From Thermosynechococcus sichuanensis E542 (GTDB lineage Bacteria > Cyanobacteriota > Cyanobacteriia > Thermosynechococcales > Thermosynechococcaceae): a stretch of DNA of 64,000 nt. The translations under genes and the position numbers were made by a program. Below are positions 1 to 3,617 of the stretch, one piece after another. The notes below the pieces were generated by a model. The model worked only from the letters and a program-made list of their open reading frames with translations. It was not told where the DNA came from and ran no database searches. The stretch spans positions 2,155,001-2,219,000 of the forward strand of contig NZ_CP032152.1 in the NCBI RefSeq assembly GCF_003555505.1, read 5' to 3'. The first letter of the stretch is position 1. Each line of letters begins with the position of its first letter.

Positions 1-1
1 G

Positions 2-100
2 CGGATGCTCATTGAACAGCGGTTGCGATCCCTACGCCGCCTTGGCAAAACCGCTGAATACCAAGCCCTCCAAGCGATTCATCGCCAAGCCTTCATGTAG
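2..100 (+). CDS. 3' end of an unidentified gene
   Basis: An open frame enters from the left edge and stops at TAG 98-100. It encodes about 32 residues rich in Arg, Leu and Gln (it contains RSLRRLGKTAEYQAL), which looks like a helical C-terminus. The stop lies 15 bases upstream of the MerR-type regulator on the same strand, so the two may be cotranscribed. Too little is visible to name a product, and the frame could be fortuitous. Confidence 0.45.
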   Translation, partial: RMLIEQRLRSLRRLGKTAEYQALQAIHRQAFM

Positions 101-115
101 GGAGACGACCATTCC

Positions 116-541
116 ATGACACCAAGGACATGGCACATCAAAGAAGTGGCCAAAGAGTTGGGGATTCATCCGCAAACGCTGTACTATTACGAGCGCATTG
201 GCTTATTACCATCGCCCCACCGCACACCAAGGGGCTACCGCGAGTTTACCGAGGTGGATATGAGGCGACTGCAATTTATTCAACGGGCAAAGGTATTGGG
301 ATTTCGCCTCAAAGAAATTCGTCAGATGCTAGATCTGCGCGAACAACGCACCCTTACCTGTGTTGCTGTGTATGAGCAACTTCAGCAGAAAATTGCTGCC
401 ATCGAAGCACAGATGATGCAGTTGCAAGCTCTCAAAAGTGAACTGGAGAGTCTCCTGCAAGAATGTCGCAGCCGCCTTAGGGAAGCGACCACGGATCAGG
501 CCTGTACCCTTTTGGAGGATTCGGAGGAACTTACCCCTTGA
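116..541 (+). CDS. MerR-family metal/thiol-responsive regulator
   Basis: This 141-residue protein has the MerR plan. Residues 8-75 are a winged helix-turn-helix with IKEVAKELGIHPQTLYYYERIGLL and a GYREF motif; about 85-120 is a long dimerisation helix. Cysteines lie at 82, 117 and 130. C82 and C117 match the numbering of two of the three metal-binding cysteines of Tn501 MerR (C82, C117, C126); the third is shifted. This argues for a soft-metal, metalloid or thiol-reactive ligand rather than an organic drug. The gene reads into a CxxC protein, a permease and glutathione reductase, and the operator dyad at 541-562 overlaps its stop codon, so it most likely controls that set. The metal is not resolved; CadR/PbrR-like or Hg-type sensing are the main options. 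Confidence 0.85.
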   Translation: MTPRTWHIKEVAKELGIHPQTLYYYERIGLLPSPHRTPRGYREFTEVDMRRLQFIQRAKVLGFRLKEIRQMLDLREQRTLTCVAVYEQLQQKIAAIEAQMMQLQALKSELESLLQECRSRLREATTDQACTLLEDSEELTP

Positions 542-569
542 CCCTATAGTTAGGTATAGGGTTTAGCCT
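538..569 (+). promoter_or_regulatory. MerR-type operator-promoter
   Basis: A -35 TTGACC (538-543) and a -10 TAGCCT (564-569) are separated by 20 bp, the overlong spacer typical of MerR-activated promoters. Between them lies a perfect dyad: ACCCTATA (541-548), six bases, TATAGGGT (555-562). It closely resembles the operators I recall for CadR and PbrR. The site overlaps the regulator's TGA stop (539-541) and precedes the CxxC protein at 602, so the predicted target is the downstream genes. Confidence 0.85.
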
Positions 570-601
570 AGCGTTAGAGCAACGCATTTAGGAAGGCTGG
601 T

Positions 602-844
602 ATGAGTGAACTCACGGTGGAGGTTCTTGGTACAGGCTGTAAAAAGTGCCATGAATTGGAGGCTAATGCCCGCGCTGCTTTGGCTCAGTTGAACTTGATC
701 GCCAACGTTAATCATATTACCGATCCCCTGGCGATCGCCGACTGTGGCGTGATGCGAACCCCCGCCTTGCGGATCAATGGTCAAGTGGTCTCCCAAGGTA
801 AAGTACTGAGTGCGGATGAAATTGCTGCATTACTCCCCCACTAA
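602..844 (+). CDS. Small thioredoxin/glutaredoxin-like CxxC protein
   Basis: An 80-residue protein with a redox motif CKKC at residues 13-16 after an opening beta strand (LTVEVLGTGCKKC). It later has the cis-proline segment MRTPALRING and ends ADEIAALL. This is the compact thioredoxin-fold family known as redox-active disulfide protein 2 (TM0996/MTH895 type). These genes often sit next to COG0701 permeases, as here. A GGAAGG ribosome site precedes the ATG. A role as a metal- or arsenic-handling thiol carrier feeding the permease is inferred from context; reductase activity is the alternative. Confidence 0.85.
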   Translation: MSELTVEVLGTGCKKCHELEANARAALAQLNLIANVNHITDPLAIADCGVMRTPALRINGQVVSQGKVLSADEIAALLPH

Positions 845-864
845 GATTTCCAAAGGAGAGAACA

Positions 865-2190
865 ATGCAAGGCAGTACCTTTTGGCAGGGGCAGTGGAAG
901 TCCCTGTTGACAATAGTTGCCGTTTTTCTCCTGTGCTTCTACTTGCCCATTGAGCAGTTGCAGCAGTGGCCGCGCTTGCATGCTGCCTTTTGGAATGCGC
1001 TCTATCTCGTGCGCTGGTATGCCCAAGAGCACGTTATTCTCTGTTTGGTGCCGGCCTTTTTTATTGCTGGGGCGATCGCGGTCTTTCTCAGCCAAGAGGC
1101 GGTGATGAAATATCTGGGAGCCGAGGCACCGAAAGCCTTGGCCTATGGGGTAGCAGCAGTATCAGGGACTATTTTGGCGGTGTGCTCCTGTACCGTCTTA
1201 CCCCTGTTTGCTAGCATCTATCGGCGGGGGGCGGGGTTGGGGCCAGCGATCGCCTTTCTCTATTCTGGGCCGGCCATTAATGTACTGGCCATTATCCTGA
1301 CAGCACGGGTGTTGGGGTTATCCTTGGGAATCGCCCGGGCGATCGGTGCCATTCTCTTTAGTGTGGTGATTGGGTTGATAATGCAAGCTCTCTTTCCTAG
1401 CCCCGTTACAGCACCCGCCGCCACTACCGCACCACTCGTGAGCGATGAACCCCCCCGCCCTTTGTGGCAGCAGGTCATCTTCTTTGCGGTGTTGGTGGGA
1501 ATTCTGGTTTTTGCCAACTGGGCACAACCCACCACCGATGCGCCCCTCTGGCAGGCGATCGCCCTTGGCAAGTGGTGGCTGACGGGCTTCTTGGCTCTAA
1601 TCCTCAGTGGCCTGTTGGTTTACTGGTACCAACTCAGCCCCTCCAAAGTCTTGCTCGTTGTCAGTGTCACCGCAGTCTTGGCATGGCGATTTGCCTCGGT
1701 GCCTTTGGTAGCCTTCAGTGCCGGCATTGTTGGCTTGGGCTGGTTAACGAGCACCAGTCGGGGTGATGCCAAAGCTTGGTTTGAATCTACGTGGGAGTAT
1801 GCGCAGCAAATTTTACCTCTCTTGTTGCTGGGGGTGCTCATTGCCGGTGCGCTACTAGGACGACCGGGGAGCGAAGCACTCATTCCTAGTCAATGGATTA
1901 CCCAAGCCGTGGGTGGCAACTCAATACTGGCGAATTTCGTGGCGGCGATCGCTGGCGCGTTCATGTATTTTGCAACACTGACAGAAGTTCCTATCCTGCA
2001 AGGCCTACTGGCCAACGGTATGGGACAAGGACCTGCACTTGCGCTCCTACTCGCTGGGCCTGCCTTATCCCTGCCCAATATGCTGGTCATCCGCCAAATC
2101 ATTGGCTGGCGCAAAACGATGACCTATGTGGCATTGGTCGTGCTAATGGCAACCCTGTCAGGCATTGGCTACGGCTACTTTTGGGGTTGA
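865..2190 (+). CDS. COG0701 (DUF318/ArsP-like) membrane permease
   Basis: This 441-residue, strongly hydrophobic protein has many membrane helices. The family signature is in the first half: a CSC pair (C107, C109) in AVCSCTVLPLFASIYRRGAG, followed by GPAINVLA. A second related half begins near residue 300 (LLLLGVLIAGALLGR ... PALSLPNMLVIRQI). The family includes ArsP, which exports trivalent organoarsenicals, and other permeases of unknown substrate. An AAGGAGAG ribosome site precedes the ATG. It sits 20 bp after the CxxC protein behind the MerR operator, which supports metal(loid) or thiol-conjugate export. The substrate cannot be read from sequence. Confidence 0.85.
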   Translation: MQGSTFWQGQWKSLLTIVAVFLLCFYLPIEQLQQWPRLHAAFWNALYLVRWYAQEHVILCLVPAFFIAGAIAVFLSQEAVMKYLGAEAPKALAYGVAAVSGTILAVCSCTVLPLFASIYRRGAGLGPAIAFLYSGPAINVLAIILTARVLGLSLGIARAIGAILFSVVIGLIMQALFPSPVTAPAATTAPLVSDEPPRPLWQQVIFFAVLVGILVFANWAQPTTDAPLWQAIALGKWWLTGFLALILSGLLVYWYQLSPSKVLLVVSVTAVLAWRFASVPLVAFSAGIVGLGWLTSTSRGDAKAWFESTWEYAQQILPLLLLGVLIAGALLGRPGSEALIPSQWITQAVGGNSILANFVAAIAGAFMYFATLTEVPILQGLLANGMGQGPALALLLAGPALSLPNMLVIRQIIGWRKTMTYVALVVLMATLSGIGYGYFWG

Positions 2191-2231
2191 CGCAGATTCG
2201 CTAGACTGAGGCTAGGTTTTGGGGAGTGAGG

Positions 2232-3617
2232 ATGAGCTACGACTACGACCTGTTTGTGATTGGTGCCGGTTCCGGTGGCTTAGCGGCCTCGAAACGGGCA
2301 GCTTCCTACGGTGCCAAGGTGGCCATTGCCGAAGGCGATAAAGTCGGCGGCACCTGTGTCATTCGGGGTTGTGTCCCCAAAAAGCTCATGGTCTATGGCT
2401 CCAAGTTTAGCCACCTTTTTGAAGACGCTGTGGGGTATGGCTGGCGCCCCGTCGAAGCCAAATTGAACTGGGAGCGACTGATTCAAGCAGTGAATCAAGA
2501 GGTAAATCGCCTCAGTGAATTGCACATTAGCTACCTTGCCAAAGCGGGGGTCGAACTGCTGCCCTTTTTTGCCCGCTTTGCGGATCCCCACACCCTAGAA
2601 CTCGTGGATCGTCAAGGACAGGTTCAGCAGCGAGTGACAGCGGCGAAAATTTTGATTGCCGTCGGGGGCGAAGCCATTAAGCCCAATGTGCCGGGGATTG
2701 AACATAGCATTACCTCGCGGGAGATGTTTTTGCTGCCCAAGCAGCCCAAGCGTATGGCTATCCTTGGGGGCGGCTACATCAGTGTTGAGTTTGCCGGCAT
2801 CATGCAGGGGCTAGGCACAGAAGTCATTCACTTTCTGCGGGGCGATCGCCCGCTGCGGGGGTTTGATCAAGACATTCAAGATGGCGTCTATGAGGGAATG
2901 CTTCGTCACGGCATTGATGTCCGTCCCCAGTGCCAGATTACTGGCTTGAAGCTCACCAAGAAAGGGAATATCCGCATTCGCTATGAACAGCAGGGGCAAG
3001 CCTGTGAAACTAAAGTGGATACGGTGCTGTGTGCAGTGGGACGGGCGCCCAACTTGCAGGGGCTAGGTCTTGATCGAGCGGGAGTACACCTTAGTACCAA
3101 TAGTCAAGGGATTGTGGCCATTGCTGTGGATGAATACTACCGCACCAACCAAGAACATATTTTTGCAGTGGGGGACTGCACCAACCGTGTCAACCTCACT
3201 CCCGTAGCCATTGCCGAAGGACGTGCCTTTGCTGATACCCAATTTGGTAACCTACCCCGCACCCTGAGTTATGAGAATATTCCCTCGGCGGTGTTTTCCC
3301 AACCGGAGGCGGCTTCGGTGGGGCTTTCGGAGGCTCAGGCCAAGGCGAAATTGGGGGAAGAAAACGTCAAAATCTACCGTGCTGCCTTTCGCCCCATGTA
3401 CCACAGCCTCACGGGTCGCGCTGAAAAGGTGATTGTCAAGTTGGTGGTGGAGAAAAATACGGAGTGGGTGCTGGGTGCCCACATGGTGGGGGACAATGCT
3501 GCTGAGATTATTCAAGGCATCGCGATCGCCCTCAAAATGGGCGCCACCAAAAAGGACTTTGATGCCACGATGGCTATTCACCCAACAACAGCGGAGGAGT
3601 TTGTCACACTGCGTTAG
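2232..3617 (+). CDS. gor: Glutathione-disulfide reductase
   Basis: A 461-residue class I pyridine nucleotide-disulfide oxidoreductase. It has an N-terminal FAD motif (IGAGSGG, near residue 11), the redox-active disulfide GGTCVIRGCVPKKLM, an NAD(P)-binding segment LGGGYISVEFAG, the FAD segment FAVGDCTNRVNLTPVA and the C-terminal catalytic HPTTAEEF. It keeps GSSG reduced using NADPH. ATG 2232 is preferred over an in-frame GTG at 2226 because GGGGAG sits at a usable distance. It lies 41 bp after the permease and may belong to the MerR-controlled group. Its 3' end overlaps the convergent ctp gene by 14 bases. Confidence 0.95.
   Translation: MSYDYDLFVIGAGSGGLAASKRAASYGAKVAIAEGDKVGGTCVIRGCVPKKLMVYGSKFSHLFEDAVGYGWRPVEAKLNWERLIQAVNQEVNRLSELHISYLAKAGVELLPFFARFADPHTLELVDRQGQVQQRVTAAKILIAVGGEAIKPNVPGIEHSITSREMFLLPKQPKRMAILGGGYISVEFAGIMQGLGTEVIHFLRGDRPLRGFDQDIQDGVYEGMLRHGIDVRPQCQITGLKLTKKGNIRIRYEQQGQACETKVDTVLCAVGRAPNLQGLGLDRAGVHLSTNSQGIVAIAVDEYYRTNQEHIFAVGDCTNRVNLTPVAIAEGRAFADTQFGNLPRTLSYENIPSAVFSQPEAASVGLSEAQAKAKLGEENVKIYRAAFRPMYHSLTGRAEKVIVKLVVEKNTEWVLGAHMVGDNAAEIIQGIAIALKMGATKKDFDATMAIHPTTAEEFVTLR

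Follow-up and report, generated by a model that had tools for sequence, protein, structure and literature searches.

A predicted MerR-type operator-promoter at the stop codon of its regulator gene, ahead of a thioredoxin-like protein and an ArsP-family permease in Thermosynechococcus sichuanensis E542

The DNA analysed here, referred to throughout as the window, is a 64-kb stretch of the T. sichuanensis E542 genome (G000:C1:2155001-2219000; genome size 2,650,294 bases), and all coordinates are window coordinates unless a locus is named (a position in locus L058 minus 8000 is the window position). Over positions 1-3617 the order is the end of pipX, a merR gene that starts 15 bp past the pipX stop, an operator-promoter, a gene for a thioredoxin-like protein (trx), an ArsP_1 permease gene and gor:

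1-100, + strand: 3′ part of pipX (NCBIfam NF045912, 138.6 bits against a cut-off of 125; full gene at L058 7819-8100)
116-541, + strand: merR, 141 aa, metal-sensor type with Cys82, Cys117 and Cys130 (Pfam MerR_1 and MerR-DNA-bind; TGA at 539-541)
538-569, + strand: predicted MerR-type operator-promoter (-35 TTGACC at 538-543, 20-bp spacer at 544-563, -10 TAGCCT at 564-569)
541-562, no strand: operator dyad (arms 541-548 and 555-562, centre 549-554)
590-596, + strand: AGGAAGG, a putative Shine-Dalgarno-like element ahead of trx
602-844, + strand: trx, MTH895/ArsE-family thioredoxin-like protein, 80 aa, CKKC (Thioredoxin_3, 79.9 bits; TIGR00412, 87.5 bits against a cut-off of 62)
865-2190, + strand: ArsP_1 family permease, 441 aa, CSC at residues 107-109 (PF03773, 248.4 bits; invariant columns)
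2226-3617 (alternative ATG at 2232), + strand: gor, glutathione reductase (TIGR01424, 627.8 bits against a cut-off of 606.05)

Since gor adjoins pipX without the intervening cassette in 6 of 11 genomes of the genus (G019, G021, G022, G024, G026 and G028), its adjacency carries no functional weight, and it is probably an ancestral pipX neighbour outside the predicted regulon.

The dyad reads ACCCTATA-GTTAGG-TATAGGGT, an 8-6-8 arrangement with zero mismatches, and the merR TGA occupies the second to fourth positions of the -35 hexamer; the -10 hexamer matches the consensus at 3 of its 6 positions. The window sequence thus bears out the original prediction that a perfect dyad overlapping the TGA sits within a 20-bp -35/-10 spacer, downstream of a regulator gene with the same orientation as trx and the permease gene, the only genes that the operator precedes. 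MerR-type promoters are described in the text of PMC9909328 and PMC3431237 as having 19-20 bp spacers (20 bp for ZntR), and 538-569, with its dyad inside such a spacer, has this architecture. The dyad alone was rejected as evidence of significance, because the window holds two perfect 8-6-8 dyads against 1.33 expected from 60 shuffles. We scored the whole composite with a 32-position matrix trained on 16 pattern-found sites from other cyanobacterial loci, with the window and genomes G027, G023, G025 and G020 left out. The site scored 40.6, compared to -3.4 for the next-best position on the + strand and 10.3 for the best score in 300 dinucleotide shuffles of the window (both strands). The claim of a MerR-type operator-promoter lying across the regulator's stop codon is supported, and its coordinates are exact. 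TTGAC-N21-TANNNT strings occur four times on the two strands, and a dyad accompanies only that at 538 (8 of 8 arm pairs; 4, 2 and 3 in the others). The site is unique in the genome at up to 3 mismatches, and the combination of dyad and promoter is beyond chance.

A class-wide scan with the exact pattern TTGACCYTATAN6TAYARG gave 57 hits spread over 53 of the 388 genomes (one for a reversed-pattern control), and gene context was inspected for 30 of the 57. A merR gene adjoins 27 of these 30, always codirectional with the promoter and never divergent; the view that a codirectional regulator is unusual and a divergent one the norm therefore fails for this cyanobacterial family. The less common trait of the window is instead the position of the operator between merR and target, seen at 5 of the 30 sites (L172, L176, L179, L182 with a short merR ORF, and L184) versus 22 with the operator before merR; the remaining three (L171, L181 and L185) have no adjoining merR. 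Among the genes behind the operator are trx with long or short ArsP_1 permease genes, ACR3 genes above cut-off (in L168 and L169, both from one genus), in L176 a mercuric-reductase-like gene, and in L190-L196 merR genes with no transporter adjoining. The L176 order is merR, a YnfA-family gene, the operator and the mercuric-reductase-like gene (434 bits against a cut-off of 454.45; cut by the locus end). L190-L196 come from one genus and carry a merR with extra cysteines, with a DesA-like desaturase or MsrP-like gene downstream in the loci examined.

Across 27 sites scoring above 25 (26 loci; 16 of the sites had trained the matrix), a TANNNT -10 element stands at constant spacing in all 27. Inner arm pairs hold (pair 5 is complementary in 27, pair 7 in 26 and pair 8 in 27) and outer pairs vary (pair 1 in 19, pair 2 in 13, pair 4 in 17), from which we take TATA-N6-TATA and its spacing to be the conserved element; the perfect outer arms are partly the window's own and not a family trait. 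Some arm changes are two-sided: the window has CCC/GGG where most sites have CCT/AGG, and in L152 arm position 6 is a C-G pair.

Within the order, the permease was matched in 10 of 29 genomes, 8 of the 11 in the genus having it at 68% identity or above; across the class it was matched in 104 of 388, many of these being weak matches to shorter permeases. The 28 regions around close relatives (20 from the class, 8 from the genus) were sorted by hand. The operator stands before merR in 13 (the L152 merR ORF is only 77 aa), before a merR-trx fusion in two (L160 and L163), between merR and trx in three (the window, L147 and L149), and before trx, or one gene plus trx, with no merR beside it in six (L059, L060, L148, which lies at a contig end, L151, L161 and L162). 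Four have no operator: it has decayed in L061 and L062, a contig end truncates L153, and L164 has none. L147 shares with the window the overlap between the -35 and the merR TGA, and both L147 and L149 also have a degenerate operator before merR. A permease tree places L147 (genome G175) in the window's sister group with support 0.82, and the MerR tree (FastTree in both cases) does not group them; the stop-codon overlap may be of convergent origin. Genome G304 has an operator site ahead of trx without a clear MerR orthologue (best match 40%). The fusions (L160 7326-7988, - strand; L163 5217-5915, + strand) join MerR and a thioredoxin-like domain in one ORF with the operator upstream, placing sensor and redox partner in a single protein. 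A candidate ACR3 gene beside trx and the permease gene in L151 was dropped (38.9 against a cut-off of 282.8).

The regulator has the family domains, all over cut-off (PF13411, 68 bits; PF09278, 65.7; PF00376, 61), and shares the winged-helix and dimer domains of metal-sensing MerR proteins (MerR, CueR, ZntR, CadR/PbrR). Cys82 and Cys117 are 35 residues apart, as in this class, and with Cys130 give the three cysteines of a three-thiolate metal(loid) sensor; all three are conserved in 35 of 36 non-paralogue MerR sequences long enough to judge. The corresponding cysteines of Tn501 MerR are numbered 82, 117 and 126. In contrast to the named sensors, the window protein has 12 residues between its second and third cysteines and lies under every equivalog cut-off: MerR(Hg) TIGR02051, the best-scoring NCBIfam model, 98.4 bits against 150.85; CueR TIGR02044, 91.6 against 147.4; CadR/PbrR TIGR02047, 86.3 against 151.45; ZntR TIGR02043, 79.9 against 167.95; and SoxR TIGR01950, 37.7 against 116.9. 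An unnamed Zn-regulator model gave 91.1 bits. By domain and promoter tests the system is a probable MerR-type switch, with a 20-bp spacer and dyad in the 19-20 bp range of metal-sensing MerR promoters (text of PMC9909328 and PMC3431237), and its regulator falls in no named metal class.

The permease exceeds the PF03773 cut-off and has, by eye, the HVxxCLVPAFFIAG motif and CSC, a C(S/T)C, described in the text of PMC4435449 for the cluster-1 ArsP permeases of ars operons. Unlike those, it would be under MerR and not ArsR control. Its partner exceeds the cut-off of the MTH895/ArsE family and has the CxxC; this family differs from the L160 and L163 relatives, where the thioredoxin-like domain is fused to MerR. 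Among 80 non-selected permease loci, 78 of them from records not titled cyanobacteria, ArsR lies beside the permease gene in 71 (CxC in 57; directly upstream and codirectional in 62) and MerR at none. The commoner order in the surveyed loci is permease-trx, the reverse of the window's. In L168 and L169, the same operator and a three-Cys MerR precede a gene for ACR3 arsenite efflux where the window has trx and the permease gene. Because the permease family and motif and the ArsE-family partner recall arsenic systems, the permease is elsewhere mostly linked to ArsR, and the operator and MerR precede ACR3 in two genomes, arsenic(III) or an organoarsenical is our best guess for the inducer, one we believe somewhat more readily than we doubt. 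Counting against it, the permease resembles the SO_0444 Cu/Zn exporter family, though under its cut-off (NF033936, 110.4 bits against 300); it is also below that of SaoE (NF040736, 113.2 against 325). The inducer is only weakly fixed, with the same operator before the mercuric-reductase-like gene of L176 and the transporter-less merR genes of L190-L196.

A cadmium or lead switch of the CadR/PbrR kind, with the same DNA mechanism and another inducer and cargo, is an unlikely reading. The dyad had been likened to CadR/PbrR operators, and against one cadR operator, from an Acidovorax plasmid (L220), this stands as far as the half-sites go (7 of 8 and 6 of 8 agree) but not for the cadR promoter's 19-bp spacer and 5-bp centre, nor is that operator recognised by the 32-position matrix. 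TIGR02047 is among the models matched and CadR chains figure among the solved structures that match the regulator best, yet the score is far under the CadR/PbrR cut-off and the mercury, copper and unnamed zinc models score about equal or higher. The targets also speak against the likeness, being Thioredoxin_3 and ArsP_1 proteins rather than a P-type ATPase.

Equally improbable, in our judgement, is a mercury or general thiol-stress switch, in which the three cysteines would serve as in the mercuric MerR and the thioredoxin-like protein and glutathione reductase would belong together. MerR(Hg) is the best model, though under its cut-off, and a merA-like gene follows the operator in L176; against this, the MerR of L176 has no cysteine in the third conserved column, the window operon has no merA-like gene, and gor is an old pipX neighbour present without the cassette.

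Comparison within the genus offers a natural experiment on the preferred reading, a MerR-controlled unit of trx and the permease gene. The cassette lies between pipX and gor in 3 of 11 genomes (G000, the window's own, G020 and G025), and in G023 and G027, draft assemblies with roughly 220 and 80 contigs, pipX-merR and operator-trx-permease-gor are on separate contigs. As both halves keep their outer neighbours there, the pipX-merR-operator-trx-permease-gor order is very probably older than the split. Homology to G023 and G027 stops at window position 525 on the merR side and resumes at 534-535 on the operator side, and we directly observe that the operator persists before trx in both (TTGACCCTATAGTTAGGTATAAGGTTTA in each). 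MerR is 158 aa and 152 aa long in these genomes versus 141 aa in the window, so the window protein is ended by a stop codon supplied by the operator.

Where merR is broken, the site has decayed. In G020 and G025 merR is in frameshifted pieces, with no other MerR found in the G020 genome at E 0.001 and only a 44-residue MerR fragment elsewhere in G025. The best matrix hit within 11 kb in G020 is at the expected place with a score of only -2.2, and a matrix scan of 11 kb found no operator at the expected place in G025. Over the genus, the site (at most one mismatch) occurs once each in 6 of 11 genomes, the same six with an intact three-Cys MerR, and both are missing in the other five, although shared ancestry makes the 11 genomes far fewer independent cases. 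A Trp in place of Cys117 served to separate a paralogue, 38-43% identical, from the three-Cys MerR; this paralogue (G000:C1:2363899-2364252 and L044-L052) is found in 8 of 11 Thermosynechococcus-group genomes.

Candidate constitutive promoters with 17-bp spacers after regulator loss (TTGACT-17-TATAAG in G020 and TTGAGT-17-TATAGT in G025) were set aside as evidence, with shuffles of the AT-rich gaps matching them in 75 of 1000 and 287 of 1000 cases, and such a promoter is a suggestion only. The similarity of the gaps to the operator was reached by shuffles in 2 of 500 and 5 of 500, respectively; the G025 stretch that aligns to the operator differs from its promoter candidate.

That the site is an inherited relic out of use is very improbable: it overlaps coding sequence, so merR could hold part of it, but it is kept in G023 and G027 away from merR and decays where merR is broken. 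A terminator or RNA hairpin closing the pipX-merR transcript, suggested by a dyad that lies at the merR end and folds as a 9-bp RNA stem, was rejected as the least credible alternative, since its folding energy is no better than that of shuffles (z -0.62; 53 of 200 fold equally well), a terminator scan finds nothing at the dyad, and relatives carry the site before merR (22 of 30) with -10 spacing fixed.

We consider it very likely, from these comparisons, that 538-569 is the operator-promoter of a two-gene unit of trx and the permease gene, controlled by the MerR encoded just upstream. In the proposed mechanism, a MerR dimer would sit on the dyad without inducer, with the 20-bp spacer holding -35 and -10 out of register; a soft metalloid bound by Cys82, Cys117 and Cys130 would lead MerR to twist the DNA, and RNA polymerase would start near 576. 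The likeliest inducer, arsenite or an organoarsenical, would be exported by the permease with the aid of the redox-active small protein. As merR starts so close to the pipX stop, we infer that it shares the pipX transcript, which would put it outside the control of its own operator. A matrix scan found no second operator site before merR in the window or the 8 kb upstream, and L058 7600-8700 has no sigma-70-like promoter with a 16-18 bp spacer. The expectation that autoregulation from 538-569 would be indirect is therefore fair, no operator lying ahead of merR. This sets the window apart from metal-sensing MerR systems, its regulator being neither divergent nor predicted to autoregulate from this site, and from most of its relatives, in which one operator before merR would drive merR and targets together, making autoregulation direct in 22 of the 30 inspected.

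More tentatively, and with slightly more doubt than belief, we propose that in cyanobacteria a MerR activator took the place of the arsenic-sensing ArsR repressor of the ArsP-ArsE exporter module. The outcome would be a branch of MerR regulators that sense arsenic and share one conserved operator, present in 53 of 388 genomes and driving ArsP-trx, ACR3 and further genes. In the lineage of the window, the sensor gene would later have come under the pipX (nitrogen/carbon) transcript and so have escaped its own feedback. Arsenic resistance in Synechocystis is described as ArsR-controlled in the text of PMC4010505 and PMC4284471. A literature search found no paper on a MerR-controlled ArsP or on this trx-permease operon, and the main text of a paper on transcription factors of thermophilic cyanobacteria (PMC10775510) names no MerR. 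New here are the range of gene orders and the proposed replacement of ArsR by MerR in cyanobacteria; the switch itself is ordinary in kind, and the relatives with a moved or lost sensor make an unusually clean natural test. If the preferred reading is right, it assigns to an uncharacterised operon of a sequenced laboratory genus its regulator, its precise promoter and a few candidate inducers, and a cyanobacterial MerR protein family gains a likely ligand. The congeners, with the operator before merR, after merR, with merR unlinked and with merR lost, would form a natural series on the loss of autoregulation in a metal switch.

Extra operator copies occur in L154 (sites 7366 and 11989) and L156 (oriented site 2634), two of which precede the gene of an ABM-like/CT0912-like protein (PF21931, PF22087) that looks secreted and may be a second member of the regulon. 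An operator-merR-trx-short permease module is also carried by the Aulosira laxa NIES-50 plasmid AP018309.1 (L219), which is typed as conjugative and whose annotation lists both trx and the permease gene as hypothetical.
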